Shown: in pieces, positions 512 through 36,313 of the stretch
Layout: every line of letters begins with the position of its first letter
How positions within the stretch are numbered: position 1 is the stretch's first letter
Source of the DNA: a virus
Virus record (IMG/VR): IMGVR_UViG_3300042888_002025
Span: 1 to 38,958 of that record
Length of the DNA: 38,958 bases
Strand: one strand, 5' to 3'
Made by a program: the position numbers and the translations under genes
The notes under the pieces: model-generated
What the model was told of the DNA's origin: nothing
What the model saw: the letters and a program-made list of their open reading frames with translations, nothing else
Database searches by the model: none

Positions 512-730
512 TTACTTTTTAGCAACAGGTCTGGTCGGGGCAAATACTGCCAACTGATCGGTTGCCATTTTGAACAGGTCAGTTGCTGTTGAAAACACAG
601 TCTTGGTATAAGCGGCCTGGGCATCAATCAAGACTTCAAAGTTACCACGAACTTCTTCGTTTGGTAAATGTGCAATTGCTTGCTTGGCTGTTTTGGCATT
701 GTGATCAACTAGGGTATCAATTGTAAACAT
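512..730 (-). CDS. Phasin-like protein
   Basis: A 72-residue, mostly helical protein that resembles the core of proteobacterial phasins, the small amphipathic proteins that coat polyhydroxyalkanoate granules. Visible phasin-like traits are the alternating hydrophobic/polar pattern, many Ala/Thr, and the segment around residues 34-60 (LIDAQAAYTKTVFSTATDLF). It is shorter than bacterial phasins (usually 110-190 aa). Start: ATG with GGAGA seven bases upstream. It has its own promoter and terminator, so it is a monocistronic unit. In a phage it may act on host carbon granules or be a repurposed helical protein; the family call is from sequence style only. Confidence 0.6.
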   Translation of the reverse strand: MFTIDTLVDHNAKTAKQAIAHLPNEEVRGNFEVLIDAQAAYTKTVFSTATDLFKMATDQLAVFAPTRPVAKK

Positions 731-784: not shown

Positions 785-830
785 CATGTTTTATATGATT
801 ATAATGATTTTGGACAAACAAGTTTGATAC

Positions 831-836
831 TAAATA
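831..836 (+). promoter_or_regulatory. Possible T4-type late promoter (TAAATA core)
   Basis: CTAAATA lies 30 bases before the ATG of the EF-hand gene; a strong AAGGAG ribosome site follows in between. The TAAATA core recurs before other genes here. The motif is short and the DNA AT-rich, so the call is tentative. Confidence 0.4.
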
Positions 837-866
837 TTCTTACATAATCTTTCAAGGAGAAATAAA

Positions 867-1181
867 ATGGAAATTCTAATCGCGTTAGTTATTGTTGCTG
901 GACTTGGTTACCTGCTGTGGTCCAACAATCAAATTAAACCTTTAGACCTAAACAAAGACGGCAAAGTTGATGCTCAAGACCTTACTGCTATTGTGCCAGT
1001 ACTAACCCAGTCTATCACAAAAGTGGCTGATGTCAACAACGACGGCAAAGTTGATGTTGAAGACGCCAAAGTGGTGGTTGAAAAGACCAAGGCAGTGGCC
1101 AAGAAAACCGCAACCAAGGTCAAGGCAGTGGCAGTCAAAGCCAAAACTGCAGTTACCAAGAAACCGCCTGTTAAAAAATAA
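867..1181 (+). CDS. Membrane-anchored EF-hand/dockerin-like Ca2+-binding protein with Lys/Ala tail
   Basis: A 104-residue protein in three parts. Residues 2-19 form a single hydrophobic segment (signal-anchor). Two calcium-loop repeats follow: D-L-N-K-D-G-K-V-D-A-Q-D (27-38) and D-V-N-N-D-G-K-V-D-V-E-D (55-66). The DxNxDGxVDxxD pattern is that of dockerin/EF-hand loops. Residues 70-104 are a Lys/Ala/Val-rich tail resembling histone H1 C-termini (KKTATKVKAVAVKAKTAV), likely disordered and nucleic-acid or polyanion binding. ATG follows AAGGAG. The gene is on the minority strand and followed after three bases by a glycosyltransferase-like gene. Role unknown; a cell-envelope protein is the simplest reading. 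Confidence 0.65.
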   Translation: MEILIALVIVAGLGYLLWSNNQIKPLDLNKDGKVDAQDLTAIVPVLTQSITKVADVNNDGKVDVEDAKVVVEKTKAVAKKTATKVKAVAVKAKTAVTKKPPVKK

Positions 1182-1184
1182 ACA

Positions 1185-2261
1185 ATGTTGGTTGCACATG
1201 TTGGAGTTTTCTACAACTCTGACACGGTTCTTTATCATATAAAACAATTTAAACAAGGCATCAACTCAGAATTATATCACAACGTTGATGCCTTTGTTGA
1301 TTGCACAGCACCAGTAAGAATTGCAATATTGCACATACCCTATCCAGTTGATCCTGAATTTGTGTCATTGGTGCGACGATTACAATCCTGGTGTAGTGCA
1401 GTATTTGTAATATGCACTGAATTGCATCCTGGCACTGTTGCCCAAATACAGCAATGCGATTATAGCAACACGTTGTATTATGTTGCTGGCACATTGAATT
1501 TCAACATGGCTTTCAGCCCAGTGCATGAATGCCAGGATTGGTTCCATACCACTTCGTATTTTTATCAACAGTATCTACCCGAACTGCTGACCAGACTGCA
1601 ACCGTACAGCGTCAAACCCAGATCATTTGATGCCTTGTTGGGGCGCAAGAAACCGCATAGGGATCATGTGTATAACCTGATTACTGCATCTGGTTTACCG
1701 TCAGTGACTACTTACATTAACAAAACACAAACAGAATTCAATTCAGATCCAGCCCAATGGAGATGGGAGTTGCCGGGGGTAAAAATGCATGGGATACCTG
1801 CATGGACAGTGGACCGAGTAGACTACTACGGACACAACATGAGTATAAGCCAGATTATTCCAATTGAAGTGTATAACGAAACTGCGTTTAGTTTAGTAAC
1901 CGAAACCTGTTACAGCAATGATTTTTCTTTTTACACAGAAAAAACTTGTAAGCCAATACTGTCGCGTAGATTGTTTGTGGTGTTTGCAGGACAGTACCAT
2001 TTACGCAACTTGCGCCGTATGGGATTTTTAACGTTCGGGGATATAATAGATGAAAGTTATGATCAGGAGCCTGATCCTGAATACAGATGGAATCAGGCTT
2101 TTGATCAGGTAAGACTACTATGCGGAATGGATCAATTAACCATGTTGAGCAAGACGCAACATATCACCAATCATAATTATCAGGTCATGACACAAAACAA
2201 TTGGTACAACAGGTTTAGTCAGCAGCTTGAGCAAGATATTGCTCGTACAATTGCTGACTAG
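1185..2261 (+). CDS. Glycosyltransferase-like protein, paralogue 1 (TEK/IDESYD family)
   Basis: A 358-residue protein with no signal peptide. It shares a C-terminal block with the proteins at 11231-12454 and 33853-35181: V-T-E-T (238-241), T-E-K (251-253), K-P-I, an R-[LPV]-F strand, then G-F-x-T-F and I-D-E-S-Y-D (288-293), and D-P-x-x-R. An upstream motif F-D-A-L-L-G-x-x-K-x-H-R (148-159) is shared with the third copy. The TEK followed by a hydrophobic strand recalls the donor-binding region of GT10 fucosyltransferases; this is a resemblance, not a proven family. It follows the EF-hand gene by three bases and converges with uvdE, overlapping it by 47 bp. No clear Shine-Dalgarno, so coupling is likely. 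Confidence 0.6.
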   Translation: MLVAHVGVFYNSDTVLYHIKQFKQGINSELYHNVDAFVDCTAPVRIAILHIPYPVDPEFVSLVRRLQSWCSAVFVICTELHPGTVAQIQQCDYSNTLYYVAGTLNFNMAFSPVHECQDWFHTTSYFYQQYLPELLTRLQPYSVKPRSFDALLGRKKPHRDHVYNLITASGLPSVTTYINKTQTEFNSDPAQWRWELPGVKMHGIPAWTVDRVDYYGHNMSISQIIPIEVYNETAFSLVTETCYSNDFSFYTEKTCKPILSRRLFVVFAGQYHLRNLRRMGFLTFGDIIDESYDQEPDPEYRWNQAFDQVRLLCGMDQLTMLSKTQHITNHNYQVMTQNNWYNRFSQQLEQDIARTIAD

Positions 2262-3739: not shown

Positions 3740-3943
3740 TTAACTAGACCATGTTAATACAAATAGCACTGCATCTTGCTCGTTGTAAAATTCAAATTCA
3801 TAGCAACACGCAATCTCATCGTCGTCTAGTAGAAGTTTGCTGTGATCGTAGATCAACCAACTGCAAAAACTGGGGCAGTTTTCTTTGGCCCAGGACACTA
3901 CCACATCCTCGTCTATGTTGGATATTTTCACCCAGGTAGTCAT
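3740..3943 (-). CDS. Small hypothetical protein with C-terminal DAxxFxLxW motif
   Basis: 67 residues from the ATG at 3943, which has GAGGT just upstream and overlaps the previous stop as ATGA; an in-frame GTG at 3949 is less likely. It ends E-Q-D-A-V-L-F-V-L-T-W-S-S. The same C-terminal pattern closes the neighbours at 3940-4176 and 4352-4579. Cys-rich middle (three Cys). Function unknown. Confidence 0.6.
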   Translation of the reverse strand: MTTWVKISNIDEDVVVSWAKENCPSFCSWLIYDHSKLLLDDDEIACCYEFEFYNEQDAVLFVLTWSS

Positions 3944-4176
3944 GACCACCTCAATAAAAAATTACTGGCGTCGTGATCATGTTCAACAACCACAACCATG
4001 CCCTGATGGTGTGCTGTGCCTCTTGGTAAACATGCCCGCATCCAGGCATATATTTGATCTTCATGAGCCACCCACCATACATAATCTGTTATGATTATGT
4101 AATGATGTGGCATCTCTTCGTCAAATGGACCAGTGGCCAAGAATCTACCTTTGTCCTTGGCAAATACCACAGTCAC
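3940..4176 (-). CDS. Small hypothetical protein with C-terminal DAxxFxLxW motif
   Basis: 78 residues, starting at a GTG that overlaps the upstream stop (GTGA). It has a hydrophobic, aromatic central segment (Y-I-I-I-T-D-Y-V-W-W-V) and ends H-D-A-S-N-F-L-L-R-W-S, matching its two neighbours. Unknown function, part of the small-gene operon. Confidence 0.6.
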   Translation of the reverse strand: MTVVFAKDKGRFLATGPFDEEMPHHYIIITDYVWWVAHEDQIYAWMRACLPRGTAHHQGMVVVVEHDHDASNFLLRWS

Positions 4177-4352
4177 TGAACAGCTGCCTTTGGGCTACAC
4201 AACGCAACCAGTTTCTTTTCTTCCCATTCTTTCCTTACTTGCATACAAGTGTTGTAGTCGGGTAATTCTTTGCGATACACCAATTGAATTTTAGGTGGTG
4301 GGTCAGACCAAATTTGCACAACTAATATCCACGGTAGTAAATCTATATTCAT
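4173..4352 (-). CDS. Hypothetical protein with possible N-terminal signal/anchor
   Basis: 59 residues from the ATG at 4352, which shares a base with the upstream stop and has GGGGA eight bases before it. A start at 4364 would add four residues. Residues 4-13 (DLLPWILVVQ) are hydrophobic, followed by a charged C-terminal half with two Cys. Not recognised. Confidence 0.5.
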   Translation of the reverse strand: MNIDLLPWILVVQIWSDPPPKIQLVYRKELPDYNTCMQVRKEWEEKKLVALCSPKAAVQ

Positions 4353-4579
4353 CAATGTCCCCATTTTAAAATAAATGCTGTCACGGCATCCGGGCTATCC
4401 AACTTCCACATACAAAACGATTGTCTACGTCCCAGATCATGCTGTAATACCCACTGGTCAATTTCTATCATGTCAGCTGTACCTGAATCATATCCTGAAT
4501 CAAACACGGTATTTTGGTCTACTTCTACCCAGTTTCCCACTTTGCGGGTTGGTATATGAATTGTGTATTTTTTACTCAT
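4352..4579 (-). CDS. Small hypothetical protein with C-terminal DAxxFxLxW motif
   Basis: 75 residues, ATG overlapping the upstream stop (ATGA). It has G-Y-D-S-G-T-A-D-M-I-E near the centre and ends S-P-D-A-V-T-A-F-I-L-K-W-G-H. Third member of a local group with the same ending; the ending is one I associate with short uncharacterised phage proteins. Confidence 0.6.
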   Translation of the reverse strand: MSKKYTIHIPTRKVGNWVEVDQNTVFDSGYDSGTADMIEIDQWVLQHDLGRRQSFCMWKLDSPDAVTAFILKWGH

Positions 4580-4926
4580 GTGATTACAATACGATCAGTA
4601 TTGATCCGGTCACTCCATAGCTTAACACCAATGCGTCTGACTGTGTCAGCTGATGATTGTGGATTGGTCCGGAACATTGATTCAATATCGCGACCAGATA
4701 TGCCAGGATCGGCTTCAATGGCATACAATTCGTAATGGCGTTGTGTGTTACATCTTGCACGTAACAACATACCTTGTATAATTGTATTAACTGGATTACG
4801 CACAGGATCCTCGTCGGCAAGAATCCTAAATGTATTTGCAACATCTATTTCTTCATACTGACTGACAGGAACCACTGATTCTAGTCCTTCGTTGCACCAA
4901 TATATTAAGTAAGCATTTTTAGTCAT
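4576..4926 (-). CDS. Hypothetical protein
   Basis: 116 residues, not recognised. Mixed alpha/beta composition, beginning T-K-N-A-Y-L-I-Y-W-C-N-E-G. Its ATG lies only five bases after the -10 element of a strong promoter, so the transcript would begin at or next to the start codon (leaderless); no Shine-Dalgarno is possible. It heads the operon that runs down to uvdE. Confidence 0.6.
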   Translation of the reverse strand: MTKNAYLIYWCNEGLESVVPVSQYEEIDVANTFRILADEDPVRNPVNTIIQGMLLRARCNTQRHYELYAIEADPGISGRDIESMFRTNPQSSADTVRRIGVKLWSDRINTDRIVIT

Positions 4927-4931
4927 ACTAC

Positions 4932-4960
4932 ATTATAGCAGTATATCTAATTTAGGTCAA
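4932..4960 (-). promoter_or_regulatory. Sigma-70 promoter of the small-gene/uvdE operon
   Basis: TTGACC (4960-4955), 17-bp spacer, TATAAT (4937-4932) preceded by TGC. The -35 overlaps the last codons and stop of the upstream gene. The expected start site falls on the ATG at 4926. Confidence 0.85.
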
Positions 4961-5325
4961 GCGATCCATCCCTGTCCGGTTATCTTGTGATACCATGGAT
5001 AAAACGGACCCGGGACGCATAATTCCCAATTGTTAGTAATCCAATTAGTGTTAGGTTGTGCTAGATGCAAATAAACGGGCATTATTTCATGTCCGTTTAT
5101 TGCTATTCTTGTAACTTCTACTGCCCCTGTAGTTACTGAGCAGTTAAAATGGAAAGAATCAAATAAATCAAAATAAAGGATTAAGTTTTGATTGTCTACT
5201 GTTTGGTTATTAACAGTGAACAGGTATTTGGCTAAATCGTGTGGTTGCAAAACGATTTCAACCGTTAGTTTATTGGCTGTATCAATAGCCAAAAGATTGT
5301 AAAAATTCTTTATATCTTGGTACAT
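4957..5325 (-). CDS. Hypothetical protein downstream of radical SAM gene
   Basis: 122 residues, rich in beta-type and aromatic residues, ending with W-E-L-C-V-P-G-P-F-Y-P-W-Y-H. It overlaps the 3' end of the radical SAM gene by 44 bp, so the two are coupled. Not a recognised family; it might be a substrate or partner of the radical SAM enzyme, but nothing in the sequence proves this. Confidence 0.5.
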   Translation of the reverse strand: MYQDIKNFYNLLAIDTANKLTVEIVLQPHDLAKYLFTVNNQTVDNQNLILYFDLFDSFHFNCSVTTGAVEVTRIAINGHEIMPVYLHLAQPNTNWITNNWELCVPGPFYPWYHKITGQGWIA

Positions 5326-6583
5326 GGTCTAGTATGCTGTTTTGTCGAATACTTTCAAATGCTTTTAGGAACTTAACTAAGTCAAATCTTGATTGGTCTG
5401 AGTTGGCTGGTTGTGTATAGTCACACATAAATTTATAATAATCTAATATTACGTTTGCTGTTACCTGTTCTACTAGATCATCTCTTCGGACGTTGACCAC
5501 ATGTTGTTTTGTTAACCCGTAATAATCAATGACATTTTTGATTTTAATTTTTATTTCTTGTCTAATATCCTCTGGTAGTAATTCAATACGAAGGCAGGCG
5601 GGGTCATGCAATATATTACAACTTTCTGCTATTACTTTATTTTCTATCATATAGACAAATAATTTATCAATCTCATAAGCAGACAATACATTTGGGGTGA
5701 TACGCAACGAAACATAAAACCCAGGATTAGAATCGCGCAGCTTCAAGAAACGATTGATATTTGGTAAAATACTGCCAATCTCTCCTGGCCATCTGATGTA
5801 GTTGTTTAGTTTAGTAACCGATTCAATGCTGATACCCAAATGAAATTGTTTAAAGCATTGAATGTACTCTTCAATCTGATTATTATATACTGTACCATTA
5901 GTGGTTGTACCTATAATGATACGATCAGCTAAACCATGTTTGATCAACTTATTGCATATGGTATAAAATGCCGGATCATACAAGGTTTCGCCACCCAAGA
6001 AATGTATGTATCGCAAGTTTGGTATTGATGCTAGTTCTGTGACAAACTGTTCTACTCGCTCTGGATCTTTAGTCCACGGTATATATGGTTCCAGTTTTTT
6101 AAACAGATCCGGATTGATCTGATTGAGCTTTTGATAATCTGCTTCAAGACGACTGCTGGCAACTGGATGGCACATGATACAAGCACTGTTACAGGTGTTA
6201 CCTAGATCAATTTGCAAGTCAACTGGTGCCAAGTCTGCTAATCCATGATTTGCTAAACTATATTCAAAATGTTTGTAATGTGGGCTGCTGCGGGTTGTGA
6301 GTTCAAATTCTTCAAGATTGATTGCACTTTTGTTTAGTTGTCGTTGCCTTGCACTTAATTTACCAAACGATTCTTCGTAATAACAAGAGTCGCAATGTGC
6401 GGGTTTTTCGCCACGTAGTAGTTGCTCTCTAAGAGATTGCATTTGTGTGCTGTTGTAGAACTCTAGTATAGACCCTGCTGCTACCCTAACAGGATTTTTT
6501 GCCCAACGACATGATTCATATAGACCGCTGTAAGTCAGTCTGGTATGGAACCAGGGACTAGAGCAAAAGTTGTCTCGCAACAT
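5282..6583 (-). CDS. Radical SAM protein, twitch-type
   Basis: 433 residues. The radical SAM [4Fe-4S] motif is C131-N-S-A-C135-I-M-C138, followed by a glycine-rich strand (F-L-G-G-E-T-L-Y) and T-T-T-N-G-T, both typical of the TIM-barrel core. Ahead of it is a Cys region (C7, C25, C64-x-x-C67) with E-S-F-G-K-L-S-A-R after it, seen in phage 'twitch domain' radical SAM proteins and shared with the protein at 29026-30324; it may hold an auxiliary cluster. Substrate unknown. The gene overlaps the tail-fibre stop by one base (TAATG), suggesting a link to fibre or surface modification. Confidence 0.85.
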   Translation of the reverse strand: MLRDNFCSSPWFHTRLTYSGLYESCRWAKNPVRVAAGSILEFYNSTQMQSLREQLLRGEKPAHCDSCYYEESFGKLSARQRQLNKSAINLEEFELTTRSSPHYKHFEYSLANHGLADLAPVDLQIDLGNTCNSACIMCHPVASSRLEADYQKLNQINPDLFKKLEPYIPWTKDPERVEQFVTELASIPNLRYIHFLGGETLYDPAFYTICNKLIKHGLADRIIIGTTTNGTVYNNQIEEYIQCFKQFHLGISIESVTKLNNYIRWPGEIGSILPNINRFLKLRDSNPGFYVSLRITPNVLSAYEIDKLFVYMIENKVIAESCNILHDPACLRIELLPEDIRQEIKIKIKNVIDYYGLTKQHVVNVRRDDLVEQVTANVILDYYKFMCDYTQPANSDQSRFDLVKFLKAFESIRQNSILDHVPRYKEFLQSFGY

Positions 6584-11230: not shown

Positions 11231-12454
11231 ATGATATCCTCGGGTTATTTTCTAAAATTAATTAACGAACTTCTTATCTATCCTAATAGAATTGTATCTA
11301 TAGAATTTGATCCTCACTACTCTACAAAGATCCGTGATCTTTGTAGAAATTCTGATTCTCCATGGCCAAAGAATAATGAGATTAATGGGCACTGTTTTTG
11401 GTGGCACGAAGAACCTATAAACAATGATGATTCTAACGAATTTATTAATTGGTATTACCAAAGATTTCCCAACGCTGCTCAAAATTTGAATAAGGTACAC
11501 ATTATTGCTAATTCCGAAAAAAGTCAGCTGAAAAACAGTATGTTAGACACACTAGGATGTAACAATTGGTACTTTTTTTATCACGGATTTGTTTCTCTAG
11601 ATTGGTTTAGAGACTTCGAATATTTTAATTGCACTACAACAGAATTTGATAAAGTATTTATTACATTTAATCATATATTAACAAAAAAAAGAAACTACAG
11701 ATTGCATTTGTTAGCTGAATTAAACAGCAGAAAATTAACCCAATATGGACATGTCAAAGCCGACTTATTATCTAGAAATCTTGTTAAACAAGAGATTTTT
11801 AACAACAATTCATTGTTGAGCAAATCTGCCAGAACCATCATTTACAAACACCTGTACCTGTCAATTGAAGATAAACACACAAAAAATAACAATTTATTTC
11901 ATGCAAGTGTATCACCGTTGGATAACAGCAGTAATCCTATACTTAATTGCGCACCGGGCAACAAAAAAACAGACCAAAGTTTAAAAAGTATGTGGCATAT
12001 AGTAACGGAAACAGTATACTATGAACAAAAGCTTCATCTGACTGAAAAAATATTTAAACCAATAGTGCTTGAAAGACCTTTTATATTACTATCAACTCAA
12101 GGAAATCTGTCATATCTTAAAAGTTACGGGTTTAAAACTTTTGATCGTTGGATCGACGAAAGCTACGATAACGAAATGGATCCTGACGTCAGACTCCAAA
12201 AAGTAGTAGACGAAATAGAGAAACTGTGTCGCAAGTCAATGTCAGAACTATTGATCATGTACCAAGAAATGCATGAAATACTTAAATTTAATAAAGAACA
12301 TTTTTATGGCAATTTTAAAAATATCATAGTTGACGAAATGATTGATAATTTTAGAATGTGTACAGAACAGTCTAAGTTAACCACAGACAAAAAATTTCAA
12401 ATTCTATCAGACAATATTAATCTTAGCCAAGTTAAAAAAATTCTACTGAAGTGA
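11231..12454 (+). CDS. Glycosyltransferase-like protein, paralogue 2 (TEK/IDESYD family)
   Basis: 407 residues, Lys/Asn-rich and markedly more AT-rich than its neighbours, which suggests separate acquisition. The C-terminal family block is present: V-T-E-T (258-261), T-E-K (271-273), K-P-I, R-P-F-I, G-F-K-T-F, I-D-E-S-Y-D (308-313). The N-terminal half is unlike the other two copies. It sits alone on the plus strand, three bases from the divergent UGDH start and three bases from the convergent DD-peptidase stop. No recognisable ribosome site before the ATG. Confidence 0.6.
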   Translation: MISSGYFLKLINELLIYPNRIVSIEFDPHYSTKIRDLCRNSDSPWPKNNEINGHCFWWHEEPINNDDSNEFINWYYQRFPNAAQNLNKVHIIANSEKSQLKNSMLDTLGCNNWYFFYHGFVSLDWFRDFEYFNCTTTEFDKVFITFNHILTKKRNYRLHLLAELNSRKLTQYGHVKADLLSRNLVKQEIFNNNSLLSKSARTIIYKHLYLSIEDKHTKNNNLFHASVSPLDNSSNPILNCAPGNKKTDQSLKSMWHIVTETVYYEQKLHLTEKIFKPIVLERPFILLSTQGNLSYLKSYGFKTFDRWIDESYDNEMDPDVRLQKVVDEIEKLCRKSMSELLIMYQEMHEILKFNKEHFYGNFKNIIVDEMIDNFRMCTEQSKLTTDKKFQILSDNINLSQVKKILLK

Positions 12455-12457
12455 ATG

Positions 12458-13207
12458 TCAATTCTGGCCAATTGCAGATAAAATCAAAGTCTCCATGTCA
12501 TGTATTCGTGTGCGAGTAGTTTTACTGTTAAGTACCACAAATAATTTTTTCTTCCCTTGCACATAGGCACTCATGACCAAACACCCGCCACTGGCTCGCA
12601 CATATCCTGTTTTACTCACAATGACATTGTATTTTGCCACCAGCGGATTGGTATTATTAAATCGCCATCTGCCTTTTTTCTTCTTGACCAGTTCAACTAC
12701 AGTTTGGTTGCTGGCATTTACTATCTCTGGATAACGTTCTGCTGCTTGCAAGAGCTTGATCAATTCCGCAGCACTGCTAACATTTCTATTATCCAGTCCT
12801 GTACTGTCACGAAACTCTGTTTGAATCATTCCTAGTATTTTGGCCTTGTGATTCATATCTTCAATGCATGCAGCATAGCCTCTACGGTACGCTTTGCACA
12901 ACATGTCAGCAGCAGCGTTGTCTGAATGAATGATTGCTAGATTGATCAGCTGATGCCTTGTTAGATTGGCTCCTTTGAACTTTTTTAATTTTACAATTTC
13001 GTTCAAATTGTCGTTGCTGTCTAGCACCACCATCACTGTCATTAATTTGGTAATTGACGCAATTGGCTGTACCACGTTGATATTCTCTTGTTCTAGTAGG
13101 TTGCCGTCGCCATCGGCTATCAACCAGGACTTGGCTTTTATTTCTGCGTGGGCAGAGGAACCACACGCGATTACTAAAATCGCCAATGTTAAAAATTTTT
13201 GTATCAT
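12458..13207 (-). CDS. Secreted D-Ala-D-Ala peptidase, S11 family (PBP7-like)
   Basis: Low-molecular-weight penicillin-binding protein that cuts D-Ala or D-Ala-mDAP bonds in peptidoglycan. 249 residues. Signal peptide at 1-21 (ends S-A-H-A); the V-I-A-C at 12-15 could also act as a lipobox. All three active-site motifs are intact: S51-x-x-K54 (S-I-T-K), S95-D-N97, K199-T-G201, plus F-R-D-S-T-G-L-D before R-N-V-S-S-A, as in PBP7. ATG shares a base with the previous stop (TAATG). It may help lysis or remodel the wall; S11 enzymes are unusual in phages. Confidence 0.9.
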   Translation of the reverse strand: MIQKFLTLAILVIACGSSAHAEIKAKSWLIADGDGNLLEQENINVVQPIASITKLMTVMVVLDSNDNLNEIVKLKKFKGANLTRHQLINLAIIHSDNAAADMLCKAYRRGYAACIEDMNHKAKILGMIQTEFRDSTGLDNRNVSSAAELIKLLQAAERYPEIVNASNQTVVELVKKKKGRWRFNNTNPLVAKYNVIVSKTGYVRASGGCLVMSAYVQGKKKLFVVLNSKTTRTRIHDMETLILSAIGQN

Positions 13208-31399: not shown

Positions 31400-31405
31400 T
31401 ATTTA
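31400..31405 (-). promoter_or_regulatory. Possible T4-type late promoter (GTAAATA)
   Basis: Minus-strand TAAATA 21 bases before the ATG at 31379, with GGGAG in between. Short motif in AT-rich DNA. Confidence 0.35.
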
Positions 31406-31783
31406 CTTAAACAGGATCAGTGCCATCAGCACAGCCTGAATAACAAAGCCAAGACCAATGGTAACAACGTTCAGCAGGTCTTTGAGGATTACGGCGCGAC
31501 CAAATAAAAATACCAGACCCAACCACATGAACAACACAACGTCCACACTGGGGGTGCTGTCGGTCATGCCTGTTAGCAAGGCCAACAAGGTGGGAATGGT
31601 TGCAGCATGTAAAGCAATTGCTGCAAGCCAACCCATTGTGTCAGCTGAAATTTTGCCGAAGTGCGTGGTAAAAAAATCTACCACTCCGGTTCTAATTTTA
31701 TCGAAATCAATTTTGTTTGAAGTTTGCATTTTTAGCGTTTTAAGTTTAGGTGTTGAAGTTAAAATTGGCATTAATTTTTCCAC
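31403..31783 (-). CDS. Small membrane protein
   Basis: 126 residues from a GTG sharing a base with the SleB stop; ATG codons at 31771 and 31729 are alternatives. Hydrophobic helices at about 50-70, 80-97 and 103-124; basic, soluble N-terminus. It directly follows the cell-wall hydrolase in the same operon, where a holin would be expected, but three short helices alone cannot prove that. Confidence 0.6.
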   Translation of the reverse strand: MEKLMPILTSTPKLKTLKMQTSNKIDFDKIRTGVVDFFTTHFGKISADTMGWLAAIALHAATIPTLLALLTGMTDSTPSVDVVLFMWLGLVFLFGRAVILKDLLNVVTIGLGFVIQAVLMALILFK

Positions 31784-32337
31784 TAACTACCATAAAATAT
31801 ATGGTGGCCAATTTTGGCAATTGGCGTCTTGCCCCATCCGGGCTTGACATAGTCAGCATGATAATACATGGCATTTTTGAGGCTGGGTAAACGAAAATTC
31901 TCCAATAGAACTTTCTTGGCAACTTCTTCGCTTTCGCGATACAAGGGTTGGTAAACAGGTTTCACTCTATGGGTACCATCACAGTACCACGAGAACTGAC
32001 AGACCACACGTGAGTAGATAACATTCTTTTGATAAACTACTGCACAAACGTCGCCTGGGAATTGCCCGCTGGCAGCACGGTTCATGGTCACCTGTGCCAC
32101 AGCCACTTTGCCTTCAAACGGTTCACTGGCAGCTTCCCAATAGATGTTTTGAGTCAGGCAACGTAACTGACGCTCGCGGTCCGTGGCTGTTACCATTTTT
32201 ACTTTGGCCATTTCGGCCTTCTCTGCTTTCAAACCTTCAAACTTGTTTTTGGTAACTGCTACTAGGGCACTTGTGGCCAACCACATACCAAATACAATTG
32301 TTACAAATTTAACCATTCCTGGGAAATATTGTTTCAT
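31783..32337 (-). CDS. Cell-wall hydrolase, SleB family (endolysin candidate)
   Basis: 184 residues. N-terminal helix (11-29) is a signal-anchor, so the protein may be exported by the host. The SleB/Hydrolase_2 domain covers about 57-184: I-Y-W-E-A-A-S-E-P with catalytic E68, A-Q-V-T-M-N-R (81-87), and C-Q-F-S-W-Y-C-D-G (113-121). SleB-type enzymes are lytic transglycosylases. ATG with GGAGGA at nine bases. Together with the nearby small membrane protein it is the best lysis set in the window. Confidence 0.9.
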   Translation of the reverse strand: MKQYFPGMVKFVTIVFGMWLATSALVAVTKNKFEGLKAEKAEMAKVKMVTATDRERQLRCLTQNIYWEAASEPFEGKVAVAQVTMNRAASGQFPGDVCAVVYQKNVIYSRVVCQFSWYCDGTHRVKPVYQPLYRESEEVAKKVLLENFRLPSLKNAMYYHADYVKPGWGKTPIAKIGHHIFYGS

Positions 32338-33852: not shown

Positions 33853-35181
33853 TTACTTTTTATGCAAAGCCTGCATCATTCTGACAGCATTGCGTCCATA
33901 TGCCATATGACACCATATTAAATCTTGAACTTTGTTTTGCGTTTCCGTGTAATACTCACGCAGTCGATTAAAGTTATGTTCTCTGATCTCTTCAGTCAGG
34001 TCATAAATTTTTCTAGGATCAAGTTCGGCTAATTTTTCCACTTGGTCAAATGCCATTTTCCATCGAATCACAGGATCTTGCACCGTGTCGTACGTTTCAT
34101 CAATCACGCAATCAAATGTTCTGAATCCCAGTTGTTTAAGCAATGTCAGTGAACCTACAGCGCCGAACAATATAAACACCCGCTTGGCGAAAAATACTCT
34201 TCCTATCTTTTCAGTCACTGAAACAAAATTTTCACACTCAGTTTCTGTGATAATGCTGTACCAGGTGTTGGCGTAGATTTTCCACGGTACCAGGTGTGCT
34301 ACACAAGCTTGCACTACACTGTGTAGTGCAAGCTGGCTAGACATTACTGCAATTATGATAGAATCTGTCAGCTGTGTTAACTCGTGTTTTGATATATCGT
34401 AATTGTAACTATCAGCCCATTTAAAAATATCGCCAATTGAGGCCTTTAATGATGCCGTGACAGTTTGTTTGCTTAATTCAGCTGCTGGGTTATAATTGAC
34501 TGTGTCGTATTTTCCAACCAATTGATAACCTGCGGATGTATAGGGAAACCAAATCTCGTCGATCCTTATCTCTGTCAGCGACAAGTGCCGGCAAGACTGT
34601 ACATAGCCTGTTGAATTTTCTTCAGCAGATCTAAAACTGTCTCTATACGTAACAACTGATTGAGCCAGCAATTTTTCGTTGTCTTGGAATCTTTTCATCA
34701 CATATGATCTATGTGTTTTAGGTGATCCCAACAAGGCATCAAATAAAAAAGATTTCTCTAAATAATGATTTGATTCGCTGAATTCATTATAGTCAATCAC
34801 ATATAGTAAATAATAAGGATAAAATACTGCTTCATCAATGTCTGACACACTGTCTTCGGTCAGTAACAAATAATTTTTTATTCCTCTTGTTTCTACAAAA
34901 GATTGTATTAATTCAGTATTGTTCCTGCAAAAAGAATCAACAACAATTACCAGATCAAATATACCAAAATCTAAATTTTGATATTGTTCCGACCAGTCTC
35001 TTATGATCTTGATGGGATCCGAAGTCCAGTATTCCACTAAACAAATTCTGTAAGGTTCGTCCAGAACTAGATTTAAATCATAAACAATATCAAATTTTAC
35101 TCTGGATTTACTTGTTGATCTAAAAATTGCATCGAATATCTTCGTGGACAATTGATATTTGTTTGGAGTAAATATGTTCAT
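33853..35181 (-). CDS. Glycosyltransferase-like protein, paralogue 3 (TEK/IDESYD family)
   Basis: 442 residues from the ATG at 35181, five bases after the nrdB stop; a frame-open start 60 bases earlier would overlap nrdB and is less likely. It has F-D-A-L-L-G-S-P-K-T-H-R (147-158), then I-T-E-T (311-314), T-E-K (323-325), R-V-F-I-L-F-G, G-F-R-T-F and I-D-E-T-Y-D (360-365), matching the plus-strand proteins at 1185 and 11231. The K-P-I position is R-V-F. It sits inside the nrd operon, between nrdB and glutaredoxin. Confidence 0.6.
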   Translation of the reverse strand: MNIFTPNKYQLSTKIFDAIFRSTSKSRVKFDIVYDLNLVLDEPYRICLVEYWTSDPIKIIRDWSEQYQNLDFGIFDLVIVVDSFCRNNTELIQSFVETRGIKNYLLLTEDSVSDIDEAVFYPYYLLYVIDYNEFSESNHYLEKSFLFDALLGSPKTHRSYVMKRFQDNEKLLAQSVVTYRDSFRSAEENSTGYVQSCRHLSLTEIRIDEIWFPYTSAGYQLVGKYDTVNYNPAAELSKQTVTASLKASIGDIFKWADSYNYDISKHELTQLTDSIIIAVMSSQLALHSVVQACVAHLVPWKIYANTWYSIITETECENFVSVTEKIGRVFFAKRVFILFGAVGSLTLLKQLGFRTFDCVIDETYDTVQDPVIRWKMAFDQVEKLAELDPRKIYDLTEEIREHNFNRLREYYTETQNKVQDLIWCHMAYGRNAVRMMQALHKK

Positions 35182-35185
35182 ACCG

Positions 35186-36313
35186 TTACAAACTAAATCC
35201 CTTGAATGTATTGCCATCCACGTCTTGTTTGGTGCCACCAATCACGTAACTTGAAATTTCTGTCTCTTGCGGTGCCACCTGAACTTCGGCGCCAGCAATC
35301 CATTTTTGTGTCCATGGTAAAGGATTTGATCCTGTTTTGATATGACAATTTAATCCCACTGCTGCCATACGTTTGCAGGTCAACCAATCTACATATTGGC
35401 CCAATAACACTTCATTCAGGCCAATCATGCTGCCATCTTTGAACAAGTAGTGTGCCCAGGCTTTTTCCTGTGCTGCTGCTGCCAAGAACATTGCTTCACA
35501 TTCTGCACGAGTTTCTTCTCTAATCAAGATATAATCAGGATCATCCTGGGGTAGTAATTTTAGCAAGGTTTGCGTGGATCCCAGGTGTACATTTTCGTCA
35601 CGAGCAATCAACTTGATGATTTTAGCATTGCCTTCCATCTTTTTCAACTCAGCAAATGCCCAACTACAAGCAAAGCTGACATAGAATCTAATACCTTCTA
35701 GTGCGTTGACACTGTTTAAACATATCCACAATTTCTTTTTTAACTCGTATCTGTCAATGGTGACTGTTTTACCATTGACTTCATGAACACCATAACCCAA
35801 CAGTTTGTAGTAACCAGCATAGTCAATTAGATCGTCATAATACTTGCTGATATCTGTAGCACAATCAACAATCTCCGGGATCTCTGTCAGCTCGTCAAAC
35901 ACGATACTAGGATTAGCATAGACGTTGCGTATGATATGAGTATAGCTACGGCTATGTATGGTTTCATTGAAACTCCAAGTCTGGATCCATGTCTCGAGTT
36001 CAGGTATGGTAGCAAGAGGAAGAAAAGCAAGATTGGGACTACGACCTTGAACGCTATCCAAAAGTATTTGACGTTTAAGATTGCTTGTAAAGATATGCTG
36101 TTCATGTTCCGTCAACTCCTTGAAATCTTTGGCATCACGAAGTACATCTACTTCCTCGGGTCTCCAAAAGAATCCCAACTGCTTGTCTGTCAGTTTGTCA
36201 AACTGTCTATATTTTAATACATCATAACGCTGTACTGGTGCCGCACCAGATTCATCCAAGAACGCCAAGGCTTTGGTATGATCTGTTTTATTATTAATAT
36301 TGAATACACTCAT
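35186..36313 (-). CDS. nrdB: Ribonucleotide reductase class Ia, beta subunit
   Basis: Holds the diiron-tyrosyl radical that starts catalysis in NrdA. 375 residues, as in E. coli (376). E-T-I-H-S-R-S-Y-T-H-I-I gives the iron ligands E115/H118 and radical Tyr122 (E. coli numbering), and D-E-N-V-H gives E238/H241. The C-terminal tail (F-K-G-F-S-L) is the NrdA docking peptide. ATG with GCGGA at about ten bases. Same operon as nrdA, with a methyltransferase in between. Confidence 0.96.
   Translation of the reverse strand: MSVFNINNKTDHTKALAFLDESGAAPVQRYDVLKYRQFDKLTDKQLGFFWRPEEVDVLRDAKDFKELTEHEQHIFTSNLKRQILLDSVQGRSPNLAFLPLATIPELETWIQTWSFNETIHSRSYTHIIRNVYANPSIVFDELTEIPEIVDCATDISKYYDDLIDYAGYYKLLGYGVHEVNGKTVTIDRYELKKKLWICLNSVNALEGIRFYVSFACSWAFAELKKMEGNAKIIKLIARDENVHLGSTQTLLKLLPQDDPDYILIREETRAECEAMFLAAAAQEKAWAHYLFKDGSMIGLNEVLLGQYVDWLTCKRMAAVGLNCHIKTGSNPLPWTQKWIAGAEVQVAPQETEISSYVIGGTKQDVDGNTFKGFSL

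Follow-up and report, generated by a model that had tools for sequence, protein, structure and literature searches.

A small gene in the DNA stretch analysed here (the window, a 38,958-base virus record classed as linear) belongs to a widespread phage family, present in many other uncultured phages, whose proteins join dockerin-type loops to a cationic helix and to an N-terminus that can be exchanged. Judged from sequence, these EF-loop and tail proteins are a real phage family, with evident conservation and purifying selection. Their loops are of a known type but occur in an unfamiliar combination with an anchor and a cationic tail, and their predicted location is the cytoplasmic face of the membrane, where, to our knowledge, dockerin-type loops are not expected. 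The function proposed here is that of a late protein at this face, whose metal-folded cationic helix would be held against a polyanion as a tether or organiser; the probability of this reading is put at roughly 0.4. If the tether role is true, the family would offer a handle on the late use of the inner membrane by large T4-like phages. The virus itself, whose record carries genes for ribonucleotide reductase, UvdE and radical SAM proteins and an ORF which we take, from its sequence, to be DnaK-like, is an uncultured, probably T4-like virus of bacteria.

The ORF list places the gene exactly where a preliminary description of the window had located it (Table 1), with 7 nt between the end of the AAGGAG motif and the ATG. 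Its product, which at 104 residues is short enough to be tested readily, opens with MEILIALVIVAGLGYLLWSNNQ, and its two loops are followed by a tail of 38 residues with a net charge of +12. The hydrophobic anchor helix, the two dockerin-type loops and the histone H1-like Lys/Ala tail of that description were all recovered by Pfam, hydropathy and charge, so that an anatomy of transmembrane (TM) helix, loops and cationic tail is established at the level of sequence. Three Pfam models match the protein, each in two stretches: Dockerin_1 with 42.8 bits (cut-off 22.9, E 6e-11), EF-hand_5 with 30.6 bits (cut-off 25.9) and EF-hand_1 with 29.6 bits (cut-off 25.4). EF positions 1, 3, 5 and 12 are occupied by D, N, D and D in both loops (D27–D38 and D55–D66). 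AF2 models were obtained for the window protein (mean pLDDT 61) and for the family member L014 (mean pLDDT 76); both have, at modest confidence, one helix running from residue 64 to residues 94–96, and the former also has an N-terminal helix.

Table 1. Features in and around the EF-loop gene of the window
Feature	Position	Strand	Basis
T4-like late promoter motif ACTAAATA, fitting the Aeh1 a/gC variant	829..836	+	sequence and family motif count
Ribosome-binding site AAGGAG	854..859	+	sequence
EF-loop protein of 104 aa, predicted membrane-tethered	867..1181	+	ORF list, Pfam and family members
N-terminal TM helix, about residues 2–19, predicted N-out/C-in	870..923	+	hydropathy and K/R pattern; AF2 helix 3–22
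EF/dockerin loop 1, DLNKDGKVDAQD	945..980	+	Pfam and sequence
EF/dockerin loop 2, DVNNDGKVDVED	1029..1064	+	Pfam; columns invariant in family alignment
Lys/Ala/Val cationic tail, predicted helix up to about residue 96	1065..1178	+	tail charge, composition, periodicity and AF2
ORF of 358 aa, beginning 4 nt past the EF-gene stop; a neighbour, not a conserved partner	1185..2261	+	ORF list, Pfam and neighbourhoods

Relatives were collected from IMG/VR, which was scanned with individual members, with an alignment and with a DNA pattern; this gave at least 140 loci, among which several contigs recur. The loop pattern identifies a member at 136 of these 140 loci, counted with the same repetition. L095, one of the four loci without such a member, appears frame-broken. 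L036 and L037, likewise outside the 136, match the L019 query at 62%; the former is a member with an altered loop, in which Gly at position 6 has become Glu. The fourth, L133, was rejected as a family member, its tandem dockerin pair lying within a large ORF (3847–6312, plus strand; 821 aa) that by eye resembles a phage virion protein and falls outside this family of small proteins. A search for the architecture, as the preliminary description had suggested, thus yields at least 74 distinct proteins, that of the window included, which combine loop and cationic tail. At 60% identity they form 21 clusters, and 39 of the proteins fall into a single cluster.

A TM segment is present in 68 of the 74 members. 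Strict-pattern loops number two in 57 proteins, one in 16 and three in a single protein. In this three-loop member (L074, 5959–6351, plus strand), the extra loop, together with its linker, resembles an almost exact tandem duplicate, so the loop number seems changeable. Among cluster representatives, D1, N3 and D5 are kept in 34 of 34 loops and D12 in 33 of 34, figures that are partly given by construction, since the members were gathered using the loop pattern. When 19 records were searched with a profile, 17 gave a single match; in G018 one ORF is matched in two pieces, and G006 shows two extra weak matches. The carriers are virus contigs of up to 357 kb, and a T4-type gp23 capsid gene scores above the cut-off in 8 of 15 records tested, the window's own record being without one. 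For within-cluster pairs with a dS of 0.15–1.5, which are not independent of one another, the whole gene has a median dN/dS of 0.15 (200 pairs), with 0.11 upstream of the tail (191 pairs) and about 0.22 in the tail (193 pairs).

Four members (the window protein, L014, L012 and L019) gave zero matches in a tblastn search of INPHARED with the low-complexity filter on. At E ≤ 0.001, nothing was found by phmmer in PDB with the window protein or by Foldseek in PDB and BFVD with the L014 model. The A3 profile matches 32 PDB sequences at E ≤ 0.01, by name dockerins and other EF-hand proteins, and mainly through the loops. Scanning GTDB with the window protein gave 223 pattern matches, of which six were confirmed, all inside query residues 24–83; these are taken as generic dockerins. 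The PHROG family phrog_18963, for which no function is given, is matched by 9 of 47 members (best E 2e-5). Two BFVD entries from uncultured Caudovirales phages, A0A6J5LB06 and A0A6J7WK90, both named 'EF-hand domain-containing protein' and 119 and 149 aa long, are weak Foldseek matches of L014 (E 0.14–0.15; 31 and 36% identity); they may be members of the family that already have database entries with an automatically assigned name. The titles and abstract openings of the literature searched contain no phage family of the loop and cationic-tail kind, and the earlier impression that the combination is unfamiliar is upheld. An EF-hand protein is mentioned for Acinetobacter phage phiAC-1 in the available text of PMC5795418.

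The cationic tail is found in 74 of 74 members, with a length of 23–88 residues and a net charge of +7 to +19. It consists largely of K (29%), A (19%), V (16%) and T (11%), with 0.1% L, 0.2% F, 0.2% W and 1.4% I. Over the first 27 residues past the last loop, hydrophobicity follows a period of 97–99 degrees (z 9.2) that 0 of 500 shuffles reach; past the exit helix it loses strength (z about 5), and 1 of 500 shuffles reaches it. A helical period that shuffling rarely or never reproduces means that residue order matters. Together with the conserved charge and the dN/dS of the tail, this shows that the tail is no low-complexity artefact absent in relatives, the outcome that the preliminary description had named as counting against its idea. 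The tail is most naturally read as a cationic amphipathic helix. Bacterial histone H1-like proteins carry a Lys/Ala-rich C-terminal tail, and AT-hook tails an RGRP-type motif. The family is like these in its own Lys/Ala-rich C-terminal tail and in the RGRKP-like ends of some members, but differs in having a membrane anchor and metal loops. The RGRKP-like, AT-hook-type ends occur in 32 of 74 tails (3 of 21 clusters) and suggest a nucleic acid ligand in part of the family. DNA binding, as put forward in the preliminary description, is therefore possible, but the window protein itself is without the motif.

By the positive-inside rule, a K/R-rich flank stays on the cytoplasmic side of the membrane. 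In every one of the 18 TM-cluster representatives, with family start codons chosen by ribosome-binding site, no K or R precedes the TM segment and the first charged residue past it is K or R; the ten residues from this one onward contain one to four K/R (mean 2.4). The rule thus predicts an N-out/C-in orientation. In 10 of the 18, the ten post-TM residues have a net charge of zero or below, so the topology argument is one of K/R counts.

The six TM-less members bear on the same question. Their N-termini read MFGFLKKLFG, MFGFIKKLFG, MLEFFKKLFG (twice), MFNFLKKLFG and MFSWLRNIF, and they share gene order with TM members in three contexts. L104 lies in a context, seen also in L090, L105 and relatives, in which genes that we take to be ClpS-like and Hsp20-like adjoin each other downstream of the EF gene. 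L139, L140, L143 and L146 lie in a UvdE context with presumed IscU-like and IscA-like genes instead, and L111 belongs to a primase/thymidylate synthase context. In 15 pairs of TM-less and TM versions, the last loop and tail are 49–66% identical, against 17–41% for the preceding part, and the UvdE gene next to L139 shares 88% identity with its counterpart at a TM-type locus. Having neither a TM segment nor a signal sequence, TM-less members should be cytoplasmic. The amphipathicity of their N-termini, taken sequence by sequence, is non-significant (permutation 0.08–0.25), so they may be soluble. There is fair support for placing loops and tail on the cytoplasmic side of the inner membrane.

The T4 late promoter has the letters TATAAATA. 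The motif TAAATA, of the kind seen in T4-like late promoters, is found at −50 to −10 in 57 of 74 family genes, compared with 92 of 644 other ORF starts, which unlike the family starts were not chosen by ribosome-binding site, and with 250 of 14800 random 40-mers. Within 60 nt, 42 of 58 occurrences begin 24–27 nt ahead of the start codon. The motif is missing in 17 of the 74 genes, among which related loci are counted separately, and present in 11 of 21 clusters. For neighbouring genes, with starts picked as for the family, it precedes 19 of 26 tail-fibre-like genes, 0 of 37 UvdE, 1 of 28 IscU-like and 1 of 33 IscA-like genes; among the 30 largest neighbour clusters listed, it also lies ahead of one non-fibre cluster (11 of 28). 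In the available text of PMC2988020, late consensus sequences are described as closely similar across T4 relatives, with a/gC replacing the first TA in phage Aeh1. The divergent neighbour of the window gene (512–730, minus strand; 72 aa) has its own ATAAATA and ribosome-binding site; it looks phasin-like by eye, Pfam giving nothing over the cut-off and PHROG nothing better than E 0.18.

According to the proposal, the protein would be expressed late in large T4-like phages and anchored to the host inner membrane, on its cytoplasmic side, by the N-terminal TM helix, a short basic-hydrophobic helix perhaps replacing the TM anchor in some relatives. By binding a divalent metal (Ca2+, or perhaps Mg2+ in the cytosol), its one to three EF/dockerin-type loops would fold the membrane-adjacent segment. 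The folded loops would then present the long cationic helical tail, in some members with its AT-hook-like RGRKP end, which would grip a polyanion. Phage DNA, an acidic prohead core or scaffold, and acidic lipid are candidates between which the tail sequence cannot choose. The most likely role would be that of a late-phase membrane tether or organiser of phage DNA or of an acidic prohead intermediate; metal binding in vivo, the tail ligand and the tether role are all suggested tentatively.

The gene neighbourhoods bear on this proposal in part. At least six arrangements, judged by eye, surround the family gene; with such variation, no fixed partner is implied. The EF gene of L004 and L009 comes after a common four-gene series ending in a gp21-type protease gene; in L009 it stands directly past the protease gene, and a gp23-type capsid gene lies downstream. 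The available text of PMC9026906 has T4 heads starting at the cytoplasmic face of the inner membrane and SPN3US heads being assembled on the inner membrane. Head assembly at this site and the nearby gp21/gp23-type genes make a late tether there a reasonable proposal. With T4 gp40, which assists gp20 portal assembly (PMC4493910, available text), and other membrane-side head-assembly factors, there would be at most a functional analogy in the use of the cytoplasmic membrane face; no sequence relation is claimed. It is unlikely, though conceivable, that the tether is metal-gated: late in infection by T4-like and jumbo phages, it would pin replicated DNA or the nascent prohead to the cytoplasmic membrane, and a leak-driven rise in Ca2+ would alter the loop fold and release or tighten the helix, so that assembly would respond to the membrane's condition.

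Other readings of the same features were weighed. The tail could be an amphipathic helix of the membrane surface, with the protein lying flat on the inner leaflet and changing curvature or charge there, nucleic acid being uninvolved. Its marked periodicity (z 9.2) and its K-, A-, V- and T-rich composition make this possible, if doubtful, but large hydrophobic residues are scarce, a protein-packed helix would give equal periodicity, the period weakens past the exit helix, and the RGRKP-like ends of 32 of the 74 members resemble a nucleic-acid motif. A small protein with a late-type promoter motif, one TM segment and a cationic tail might also serve in lysis, whether as a spanin, as a holin or antiholin, or as a cationic peptide of the disruptin type. 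For each of three Rz-like spanin profiles in PHROG, 1 of 47 members is a match (E 2.6e-4 to 8.4e-4), and the window protein scores 18.1 bits (E 0.0037) against an Rz-like profile. However, class III holins have a single TM segment in N-in/C-out orientation and a large periplasmic domain (PMC9636201, available text), and the topology predicted here is the opposite, as it is to the N-in/C-out TM of an i-spanin (Rz). An embedded lipobox ORF is found in 0 of 74 genes by a pattern search within the EF genes. Neither the spanin nor the holin reading thus fits; TM-less members exist, and the window's cell-wall hydrolase gene (31783–32337) is about 30 kb away, which leaves a role in lysis improbable.

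Dockerins are classic extracellular modules, and Ca2+ concentrations are high outside the cytosol. Both points would suit a periplasmic or LPS-binding protein drawing its Ca2+/Mg2+ from the outer membrane, which is close to the LPS binding at the membrane that the preliminary description had envisaged. This idea was not borne out: the K/R pattern in 18 of 18 TM-cluster representatives and the TM-less, signal-less versions at matching loci predict a cytoplasmic protein, so that an LPS role is unlikely and the reading as a whole has a very small chance of being right. The slightest chance falls to a true dockerin, which would pair with a cohesin carried by a different protein of phage or host. 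Dockerin_1 does exceed its cut-off with the window protein and reaches E ≤ 0.001 with 43 of the 47 members in the alignment, and the family shares with type I dockerins (PF00404) the loop pattern DxNxDGxVDxxD and, in 57 of 74 members, two strict loops. The family differs in its predicted cytoplasmic location, its one to three loops (16 of 74 members having one strict loop alone) and its cationic tail. In 14 virus records other than the window's, which may be fragments, no cohesin (PF00963) scores above the cut-off, the one sub-threshold match being in G006; a cohesin partner is not established. The late cytoplasmic tether or organiser is thus the reading preferred here.

The ORF that follows the EF gene had been described as glycosyltransferase-like. 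It does adjoin the EF gene directly, but this identity is unsupported: no Pfam cut-off is reached (best CadC_C1, 19.6 of 25 bits), and no PHROG match is better than E 0.24. Nor is a link between the two genes supported, the pairing not being seen in the neighbourhoods of relatives. Its C-terminal region, with the pattern TEK..GF.TF..IDE.YD, recurs in the window at 11231–12454 (plus strand; 37% identity over 97 residues) and 33853–35241 (minus strand; 35% over 117 residues). These two ORFs have no Pfam match at E ≤ 0.01, and the second also has no INPHARED match. Elsewhere in the window, the cell-wall hydrolase gene (PF07486) adjoins a small hydrophobic ORF, with which it forms a candidate lysis pair (31403–32337, minus strand), and a D-Ala-D-Ala carboxypeptidase gene lies at 12458–13207 on the minus strand.
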